DNA of 64,000 nucleotides from NCBI GenBank assembly GCA_902603905.1, contig CACKWM010000001.1:1-64000 (forward strand). The letters are read 5' to 3'. Each line of letters begins with the position of its first letter. Within the stretch, counting starts at the first letter, position 1. Source of the stretch: an uncultured Pelagibacteraceae bacterium. GTDB taxonomy: Bacteria; Pseudomonadota; Alphaproteobacteria; Pelagibacterales; Pelagibacteraceae. Below the pieces are notes generated by a model, which searched no databases, was not told the origin of the DNA, and saw only the letters and a program-made list of their open reading frames with translations. The position numbers and the translations under genes are program-made. Positions 28,292 to 41,672 of this stretch are shown one piece after another.

Positions 28292-29659
28292 ATGAGATAT
28301 GTAAGCACTAGAGATAATTCAAAAGAATATAGTTTTGAAGATGTTTTTATAAAAGGCTTGGCTGATGATGGAGGTCTTTATATACCAAAATTATTAAAAA
28401 AATATAACACTGAAGAATTATCAGAGCTTAAAAATTTAAATTATAACGAATTATCTACAGAAATAATAAATCAATTTTCATCAGATTTTATATCTAAAGA
28501 TGAACTGTCATCTTTAGTTAGTAAATCATATTCAACATTTAGAGAAAAAGAGGTTGTTAAAATGTCAAGCGCTGGAGAACTAAAATTACTAGAATTGTTT
28601 CATGGACCAACATTAGCTTTTAAAGATGTTGCAATGCAGTTTATTGGAAATTTGTATGAGTATTATTTAAGTAAAAATAATAATAAAATAAATATAGTTG
28701 TTGCAACTTCTGGAGATACAGGTGCAGCAGCCATTAATGCAATTAAAGGAAAATCCAATTTAAATATTTTTGTTTTGCATCCGAATAATAGAATTTCTTC
28801 TGTTCAAAGAAAATTGATGACAACTGTTGATGAAAAAAATGTTTTCAATATTGCAATAGAAGGAAACTTTGATGATTGCCAGAATATTGTAAAACAAATG
28901 TTTTCTGACTTAGAATTTTCTAAATCTATAAATATGTCAGGTGTAAATTCAATTAACTGGGTAAGAATTATTGCTCAAACAGTCTATTATTTTTACTCAT
29001 ATTTTAAATTAGATAAAGAAACTATTTCATTTTCAGTTCCCACAGGAAACTTTGGCGATGTCTTTGCAGGCTATCTTTCAAAGAAAATGGGATTACCAAT
29101 AGATAAACTAATTGTTGCAACAAACGAAAACGATATTTTGCATAGAGCGATTTCAAAAGGAGATTATGTATCAAGAGAAGTAAAAGAAACATTGTCACCT
29201 AGTATGGATATTCAATTAGCAAGCAACTTTGAAAGATTAATTTACTATATAAATAATTCCGACTCTGAAAAAACAACAGAAATTATGAAAAAGGTTAAGC
29301 AAAATTCTTATCAAATTGAAAAGAACAATTTAGATATAATTCATAAGGATTTTTTATCTGAAAGTTGTAATGAACAAGAAACTTTAGAAATTATTAAAAA
29401 AAATTATGAAGAAAATAATATCATATTAGATCCTCATACAGCGGTTGGAGTAGGGGCTGCAAAAAAACTATCTTTTAATGATTGTGTAGTTTTAGCAACA
29501 GCACACCCATGTAAATTTCCTGATGCCACAAATAATGCAATAAATAAGCATGAAAAATTGCCTGATGAACTTCAGCATGTGCTTGATAAAAAAGAAAATT
29601 TTCAAGTATTAAAAAATAATACTGATGATGTAAAAAACTTTGTTAAAAGCAAAATCTAA
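28292..29659 (+). CDS. thrC: threonine synthase
   Basis: MRYVSTRDNSKEYSFEDVFIKGLADDGGLYIPK; HGPTLAFKDVAMQF; VATSGDTGAAAINAIKG. Confidence 0.96.
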   Translation: MRYVSTRDNSKEYSFEDVFIKGLADDGGLYIPKLLKKYNTEELSELKNLNYNELSTEIINQFSSDFISKDELSSLVSKSYSTFREKEVVKMSSAGELKLLELFHGPTLAFKDVAMQFIGNLYEYYLSKNNNKINIVVATSGDTGAAAINAIKGKSNLNIFVLHPNNRISSVQRKLMTTVDEKNVFNIAIEGNFDDCQNIVKQMFSDLEFSKSINMSGVNSINWVRIIAQTVYYFYSYFKLDKETISFSVPTGNFGDVFAGYLSKKMGLPIDKLIVATNENDILHRAISKGDYVSREVKETLSPSMDIQLASNFERLIYYINNSDSEKTTEIMKKVKQNSYQIEKNNLDIIHKDFLSESCNEQETLEIIKKNYEENNIILDPHTAVGVGAAKKLSFNDCVVLATAHPCKFPDATNNAINKHEKLPDELQHVLDKKENFQVLKNNTDDVKNFVKSKI

Positions 29660-29661
29660 AG

Positions 29662-29686
29662 GGGGCGTTCTGTTGCCAGGCGCTCC
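29662..29686. repeat. 25-nt hairpin repeat, copy 1 (3' of thrC and of DUF805 gene)
   Basis: GGGGCGTTCTGTTGCCAGGCGCTCC; 19/25 identical to copy 2 at 30111-30135. Confidence 0.75.
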
Positions 29687-29693
29687 AAATATA

Positions 29694-30065
29694 TTATTTT
29701 TTTAATTTTAAGGGCGATCCATGGACATTTTTCTTATTTTCACCAACAGTTGCCCACCAAATTATTAATAAAATTATTCCAATCACAGTTAGTACAATTA
29801 ACTGCCACCAACCTGATCTATTTATATCATGAAGTCTTCTTGCTCCAACAGCGATATAAGGTAGAAAAGTTATTACACTAAATATTATATTTGTGGGTCC
29901 ATATGCTTCAAGGGAATATCCAAAAATCATTACATCTATTACTGCAGTAACTATTCCACCTATAAAACCAAAAAGTGCAAACCACCAAAATTCAGATCTA
30001 GATGCCCTTCCAGAAAAATCGGCATATTTAGAAAAACAGGTTTTTATAGATGTTCCAAAGTCCAT
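29694..30065 (-). CDS. DUF805 family membrane protein
   Basis: KYADFSGRASRSEFWWFALF; LPYIAVGARRLHDINRSGWW. Confidence 0.9.
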   Translation of the reverse strand: MDFGTSIKTCFSKYADFSGRASRSEFWWFALFGFIGGIVTAVIDVMIFGYSLEAYGPTNIIFSVITFLPYIAVGARRLHDINRSGWWQLIVLTVIGIILLIIWWATVGENKKNVHGSPLKLKK

Positions 30066-30110
30066 GTAGGTTTATAAACTAATTTAATTTAAATTTAAAT
30101 AATAATTAAA

Positions 30111-30135
30111 GGGGCGTTTTGTCACCAGGTGCCCT
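30111..30135. repeat. 25-nt hairpin repeat, copy 2 (between rnhA and DUF805 gene)
   Basis: GGGGCGTTTTGTCACCAGGTGCCCT; same orientation as copy 1. Confidence 0.75.
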
Positions 30136-40505: not shown

Positions 40506-41575
40506 TTATTAGAGATTAATCTTTGTCTCAAATGATCAATAGGTACTACCGCACCATCTAAATTATAATGCCAATAAGTCCACCCATTGCAACTTTCAGC
40601 ACCCAGAATTGTTGCTGCCACTTTATGAATTGAGCCTTCTGTTTGTGCATGTTTAATACTGCCATCGGCCATAATTTTTGCTCTAACTTTCTTTTTATTA
40701 TCAAAAATAGTGCTGCCAGGCTTTATTATTCCTAATTCAACTAAAGAACCAAAAGGTATTCTTGGCTTTGATCTATTATTTTTTAATGTGTCTAAATAAT
40801 CATCATCTATAGGTTTTGTATTTTTTAATCTTTCTTCTGCTGCTTTAAAATAATTTTTTTCTTTTTCAATTCCGTAATAATTTCTTCCCAGTTTTTTTGC
40901 AACTGTAGCCGTTGTTCCAGATCCAAGAAAAGGATCCAAAATCATATCCCCTTTATTTGAGGAGGCTAATAAAACTCTATGTAATAGGGACTCAGGTTTT
41001 TGCGTAGAATGAATTTTCTTACCATTCTTTTTTAATCTTTCAGCTCCGTTACAAATTGGCAAATTCCAGTTTGACCTCATTTGAATATCATCATTTAAGC
41101 ATTTTAATGATTGATAATTAAATGTGTATTTTGAATTTTTTTCTTTAGAGGCCCAAATTAATGTTTCATGAGCATTAGTAAATCTTGTTCCTCTGAAATT
41201 TGGCATTGGATTATTTTTGTTCCAAATTACATCATTAAGTATCCAAAATCCTAAGTCTTGTATTTTGGCACCAACTCTAAAAATATTATGATAACTACCA
41301 ATTACCCAAATGCTCCCATTTTTTTTTAAAAGTCTTTTGCATTCTAAAAGCCAATCATTAGTAAATTCATCATAAGTTTTAAAACTTTCAAATTGATCCC
41401 ATTTGTCATTTACTGCTTTTACTTTAGACCTATCAGGTCTGATTAATTTATTTCTTAGCTGCAAATTATATGGAGGATCAGCAAAAATTAGATCAAAACT
41501 TTCATCAGGGATTTTTTTTAATTCTTTAAGACTGTCCCCGTTAATAATTTTATTTTTTAAATTCGAGCTAATCAT
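40502..41575 (-). CDS. ccrM: CcrM-like adenine-specific DNA methyltransferase (GANTC predicted)
   Basis: DSFDLIFADPPYNLQL; ILDPFLGSGTTATVAKKLGRNYYGIEKE; C-terminal extension with AES CNGWTYWHY; start trimmed. Confidence 0.9.
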   Translation of the reverse strand: MISSNLKNKIINGDSLKELKKIPDESFDLIFADPPYNLQLRNKLIRPDRSKVKAVNDKWDQFESFKTYDEFTNDWLLECKRLLKKNGSIWVIGSYHNIFRVGAKIQDLGFWILNDVIWNKNNPMPNFRGTRFTNAHETLIWASKEKNSKYTFNYQSLKCLNDDIQMRSNWNLPICNGAERLKKNGKKIHSTQKPESLLHRVLLASSNKGDMILDPFLGSGTTATVAKKLGRNYYGIEKEKNYFKAAEERLKNTKPIDDDYLDTLKNNRSKPRIPFGSLVELGIIKPGSTIFDNKKKVRAKIMADGSIKHAQTEGSIHKVAATILGAESCNGWTYWHYNLDGAVVPIDHLRQRLISNN

Positions 41576-41592
41576 TTTTATAAAAAACAATT

Positions 41593-41672
41593 AGACTCCA
41601 GCTCAGAGTCTCCGTCAACCTGCGATTGAATTAATTTGAGTCCAATAGTGATCTAATTTATTTTAGACTCAA
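41593..41672. promoter_or_regulatory. cluster of four GANTC sites arranged as inverted pairs upstream of the ccrM-like gene
   Basis: GACTC 41594, GAGTC 41606, GAGTC 41638, GACTC 41666; AGACTC-N7-GAGTCT and TTGAGTC...GACTCAA. Confidence 0.6.

Follow-up and report, generated by a model that had tools for sequence, protein, structure and literature searches.

Direct repeats matching the 3' end of permuted ssrA as probable attachment-type sites of a DUF805 gene cassette in Pelagibacter (SAR11)

In the first 64,000 nt of contig CACKWM010000001.1 (assembly GCA_902603905.1) from an uncultured Pelagibacteraceae bacterium, referred to here as the window, two 25-nt direct repeats flank a gene for a DUF805 membrane protein located between thrC and rnhA. 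With a probability of roughly 0.83, these repeats originate from the 3' end of permuted ssrA, the gene for transfer-messenger RNA (tmRNA), and represent core sites of the attachment type, between which the DUF805 gene was inserted at rnhA–thrC as a cassette of one gene. The original prediction, made from the window alone, had named cassette boundaries as one candidate for the repeats, and this candidate is supported by empty-site alleles, by cassettes common to several loci and by the strictly direct orientation of the repeats. The identity of the element as the ssrA 3' end, which is apparent from the ssrA genes of relatives, had been overlooked.

The repeats were found exactly at the predicted positions, 29662–29686 and 30111–30135 on the + strand, in the same orientation, and a comparison of both copies confirmed that all six differences between them are transitions. 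As had also been predicted, they bracket the DUF805 open reading frame (ORF), which extends from 29694 to 30065 on the − strand. A pooled pattern of both copies (up to 3 mismatches) gave two matches in the 64 kb and none in 100 dinucleotide shuffles, and the same two copies are the only ones in the 853-kb, 61%-complete genome to which the window belongs. On the − strand, copy 1 reads GGAGCGCCTGGCAACAGAACGCCCC, with 2 mismatches to the genus consensus, and is located at the thrC end, 7 nt past the DUF805 stop codon. Copy 2 reads AGGGCACCTGGTGACAAAACGCCCC on the same strand, with 4 mismatches to the consensus, and is located 2 nt past the rnhA stop codon.

The clue to the ssrA identity of the element was a sub-threshold Rfam match of copy 1 on the minus strand to alpha_tmRNA, with CCTGGCAACAGAA common to the copy and the 3' end of the model. 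Read as GGGGCACCTGGCAACAGAACGCCCC (in the window on the minus strand), the element is located at the 3' end, in genomic order, of the two-piece, permuted ssrA gene of relatives, as for example in the tmRNA gene at G008:C4:87714–88011 (−), where the core occupies 87717–87741. In every genome of the genus in which ssrA was found, the core forms the ssrA 3' end, and the genus consensus is identical to that end. No ssrA gene was identified in the window genome itself, whose assembly is incomplete. The element was identified in 75 of 91 Pelagibacter genomes, the window genome included, in none of 53 sister-family genomes and in one of six more distant genomes; a reversed control pattern gave no matches in the same genome sets. 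In the sister family, a single copy of the ssrA end, present at ssrA, was identified in 24 of 25 genomes. The named records are from Pelagibacteraceae, with one from Fonsibacter and one from Aquisediminimonas. The Aquisediminimonas record contains two successive copies resembling the ssrA 3' end, about 40 bp apart (L240:6350–6412), which suggests an insertion at the permuted ssrA end in another alphaproteobacterial order.

The collected set comprises 286 distinct element contexts, 137 at ssrA and 149 elsewhere, with one to six copies per genome. Neighbouring cores less than 7 kb apart enclose 75 distinct intervals of 99–6266 nt (median 775), among which no inverted border pair was found; the cores are always direct repeats. 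The intervals carry one to a few unrelated genes, and 104 of the 128 ORFs of at least 60 amino acids are antisense to ssrA, the other 24 being sense. The cargo includes type I restriction genes, Mrr- and McrB-like proteins, HNH proteins and exo/endonuclease-phosphatase proteins, and in addition GNAT, AhpC, rhodanese, cupredoxin, methyltransferase, small secreted and DUF805 proteins. Many arrays are located at ssrA itself (L073, L076 and L075), the window cassette instead at rnhA–thrC. Cassette ORFs of L060, L280, L133 and L218 code for unrelated proteins with a near-identical signal peptide (MKK-LGI-VLGLL), which gives the impression of a gene start that is reused as a module.

The sequences directly downstream of the core form 31 clusters of at least two members, and about 20 of these clusters occur in at least two upstream contexts. 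Cluster DN2, for example, was identified three times at ssrA, twice at rnhA (context U1, to which the window belongs with its core 2 nt past the stop codon), twice in context U6, once at pnp (context U7), once at a cassette tail and once in an unassigned context. The pnp context, polynucleotide phosphorylase, was named by sequence inspection, with the core of L237 located 6 nt past the stop codon. Cassette content of one ssrA array recurs in another array with 92.7% identity over 1593 nt. Since shared interval starts follow the core at the ends of ssrA, rnhA, pnp and further genes, joined exactly at the element, it was concluded that the units moved between sites.

A comparison of the thrC–rnhA spacing, which had been proposed with the original prediction, revealed three alleles among relatives. 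In G015, whose RnhA is 91% identical, the element is absent and the gene ends overlap, representing the empty allele. A lone core is present between rnhA and its next gene in G065, G072, G033 and G029. Cassettes occupy the rnhA–thrC site in the window genome, G084 (GNAT), G066 and G079, and the element is absent from this spot in deeper branches, such as G012 and G082. In the window, the interval between the core sites spans 424 nt (29687–30110, −) and holds one gene, coding for a DUF805 protein of 123 amino acids (Pfam PF05656, E=3e-25) in the direction of the ssrA-sense cores. The rnhA gene (RNase HI, PF00075; 30138–30560, −) has a 3' end that is a recurrent insertion site, with 22 copies of context U1, and thrC (threonine synthase; 28292–29659, +) is encoded convergently beyond the insertion. 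The junction sequence on the thrC side is common to the window and the members L065, L079 and L221 of cluster DN13. DUF805 genes bracketed by cores were also identified at other loci (L052 of G015 and L048 of G154). In L141 of G008, where DUF805 is likewise located beside rnhA, a decayed core (17 of 25 positions) follows immediately past the DUF805 stop codon, a match that was not equalled in any of 20,000 short random trials.

For the movement of the cassettes, we infer a circular intermediate, a crossover within the core and a trans-acting tyrosine recombinase, either the Cre/XerA-like enzyme described below or a phage integrase. A cassette would be excised as a circle with one core, and a crossover of this core with a chromosomal core would insert the cassette with one core on each side. 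The target could be ssrA or a core deposited previously at the 3' end of another gene, such as rnhA or pnp. Repeated insertions would build arrays of the same orientation, and excision would leave a lone core behind.

With PF00589, usually one tyrosine recombinase of about 318 amino acids was identified per genome, with the R, K, HxxR, H and Y motifs present in its sequence (for example L307:4643–5599 (−), and its orthologues). By sequence, this conserved enzyme is nearest to XerA and Cre; it scores about 60–80 bits against XerC/XerD cut-offs of 329–335 and about 25–34 bits against the integron integrase cut-off of 265. The low XerC/XerD scores fit the reported absence of dif/Xer from P. ubique (PMC2731167). 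In most genomes of the sister family, Xer-sized relatives are present at two loci, and from their size and number these are probably XerC and XerD. In Pelagibacter, a single Cre/XerA-like tyrosine recombinase apparently replaces the two. This contrast between the two groups, both in recombinases and in the spread of the core, makes the Pelagibacter enzyme a candidate; it is the only near-universal one, and a role in cassette movement is conceivable. An integron-like system of Pelagibacter's own, in which this recombinase would transfer cassettes of one gene each from one copy of the tmRNA gene end to another, with ssrA as the founding site and the ends of housekeeping genes as further sites, may be put forward tentatively. 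A phage integrase in trans and plain homologous recombination are possible movers as well.

Several observations weigh against the interpretation of the repeats as cassette attachment sites. No integrase was found among the cassette ORFs scanned or near the arrays, and the candidate enzyme was undetected in G033, G035, G037 and G075, of which the first three are 86–90% complete and contain extra cores. Circles and core–core junction reads are predicted, and none has been seen. Cores at the ends of protein genes require a first insertion at a non-core site, which is unexplained, and the DUF805 loci of G018 and G021 are without cores. Moreover, most of the genomes were assembled from single cells and are partial, cells that are related do not count as independent, and counts from the scan of the genome contigs are lower bounds.

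The cassettes might also be remnants of ssrA-specific phages or islands, satellite-like, with integrases supplied in trans or lost; this is a doubtful explanation. In its favour, integration at ssrA is common (PMC11915505, PMC3146451), pelagimyophages possess an entire ssrA with the same core end, and phage-type integrases occur sporadically in some genomes. However, 2.9 million viral contigs contained the core only eight times, always within a full phage tmRNA gene, and the sporadic integrases are located beside tRNA-Leu or elsewhere, with no core within 3–4 kb. No core was found near the integrase genes in 16 regions, and the conserved enzyme is encoded in another region, with no core nearby. 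The eight phage contigs (L177–L184, from IMG/VR, T4-like pelagimyophages) contain a complete permuted ssrA, for example at L177:10573–10892, with the tag ADENLALAA and an identical 25-nt core end, and differing small genes are located directly downstream.

Ordinary homologous recombination between short identical ends would swap cassettes without any site-specific recombinase. It would account for the lack of a dedicated recombinase near the arrays, and for the large variable region of SAR11, high recombination rates and an exchange across flanking RNA genes have been proposed (PMC2217521). However, the homology extends over only about 25 bp and varies between sites, and the strict orientation, the single-gene units and a border at a constant nucleotide fit site-specific exchange better. 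In addition, the sister family, with an ssrA end of its own, shows no spread, so that this explanation is considered unlikely.

Site-specific exchange at a DNA site is also consistent with the anatomy of the element in 146 non-ssrA copies. These have a sharp right border, with CCCC followed by T in 84%, and a fuzzy left border that fades across positions 1–4. All five outer stem pairs are kept in 80 of the 146 copies and broken in 66, compared to 137 of 137 ssrA copies, and the centre CACCTGGCAACAGAACG is nearly invariant. The T content after the core is at background (3.65 versus 3.47 per 8 nt). The frequently broken stem, the fixed centre and the background T content argue for conservation as a DNA site and not as a terminator or RNA hairpin. 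A conserved structured RNA spread to gene ends, be it a terminator, a hairpin of the 3' untranslated region (UTR) or an RNA processing element, is consequently very improbable, and it would leave the cassettes common to different loci unexplained. In its favour, copies are located a few nucleotides past the stop codons of several genes, among them rnhA and pnp, the stem is complete in the ssrA copies, some of which enter T tracts, and copy 1 folds better than shuffled sequences. The + strand fold of the original prediction held for copy 1 alone (−12.5 kcal/mol, z −2.4); copy 2 folds no better than shuffles (−8.0 kcal/mol, z −0.7) and in its context adopts a different fold (z −0.65). The structured 3' UTR element suggested there is not supported by the same stem, centre and T-run data, and an intrinsic terminator, with a GC stem and a T run, was rejected on the stem and T counts. 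A REP- or MITE-like (repetitive extragenic palindromic or miniature inverted-repeat) element spread by a transposase, the former also suggested originally, is hardly credible; the repeats are small, hairpin-capable, dispersed and present in several copies, but they number only one to six per genome, form direct arrays only and are identical to the ssrA end, and PF01797, for the REP-associated Y1 transposase, gave a single sub-threshold, stop-interrupted match in 96 genomes.

Beyond the core, many cassettes have a conserved leader, often with a ATTATTCGCGAATAAT palindrome or variants of it adjoining the core, and this leader may belong to the site or act as a promoter. At L286:4798, L068:8139, L064:7433 and about 40 other cassette ends, the leaders share the palindrome and also have 11-nt direct repeats of cassette-specific sequence, such as ATCCCGTACAT ATCCCGTACAG, before unrelated ORFs. 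An attC-like hairpin between tail and core was considered from complementarity seen by eye at some cassette ends (CTGTTGC...GCAACAG), but it is not general and is not claimed.

In comparison to known systems, the cassettes work like those of att sites or integrons, yet they are not a member of the integron family. They share with integron cassettes (attC/IntI) the single-gene units with one site per unit, the strict orientation, the arrays and the unrelated cargo, including restriction and nuclease genes. They differ from integrons by a 25-bp site from the ssrA end, by several insertion loci and by the absence of IntI beside attI; inspection of aligned cores and leaders, without a dedicated attC search, revealed no RYYYAAC...GTTRRRY boxes. 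For SAR11 variable regions, an earlier analysis detected no attC sites and noted an integrase gene in hypervariable region 2 (PMC2217521). The Dehalococcoides ssrA islands, vcr-GI and others, are alike in the direct repeat of the ssrA end and in tandem growth, and islands without their own integrase occur among ssrA-specific islands, too (PMC3146451). However, the Dehalococcoides islands contain a serine recombinase module and have all repeats within 100 kb of ssrA (PMC3146451), whereas in Pelagibacter the ssrA gene is permuted with a non-tRNA-like end, the units often consist of one gene, arrays are also located away from ssrA, at rnhA, pnp and further genes, and PF00239 gave no serine recombinase match in 96 genomes. 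Of the features of ssrA-integrated elements, the border repeat identical to the ssrA 3' end is present here, and an element-borne integrase was not found among the scanned cassette ORFs or near the arrays. Integration at the non-tRNA-like end of permuted ssrA has reportedly been described for cyanobacteria by Williams in "Traffic at the tmRNA gene". The Tycheposons of Prochlorococcus are similar in carrying island cargo beside the ends of RNA genes in streamlined marine bacteria; they are tRNA-linked, usually encode their own tyrosine recombinase and are larger than the Pelagibacter cassettes. Tycheposons are named in PMC10872708 and PMC12416821. In the pdif (XerC/D) modules of Acinetobacter plasmids (PMC7399989), genes are likewise flanked by short sites of tyrosine-recombinase type and the recombinase acts in trans from the chromosome, as is proposed for Pelagibacter; however, the Pelagibacter core is not dif-like, and P. 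ubique was reported without dif/Xer (PMC2731167). A bulged hairpin near rhtB (PMC2704228) differs from the core by its context and a frequent U tract, the comparison being based on these features alone. Elsewhere in the window, a match to the small RNA family bablM was identified by Rfam at 41573–41642 (−), with 56.8 bits, which is over the gathering score.

In a literature search, with most subscription journals outside its reach, no account of such a cassette system in SAR11 was found, and it appears that none has been described before for Pelagibacter. SAR11 bacteria are among the most abundant in the ocean and serve as a model for genome streamlining, with mobile elements being few. If true, the cassette system would provide a concrete and testable route for the gain and loss of single genes, those for restriction enzymes and other nucleases among them, and the core sequence is a ready probe to count cassettes in metagenomes. 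It would also imply that the end of a permuted tmRNA gene can seed sites throughout the chromosome, beyond ssrA itself.
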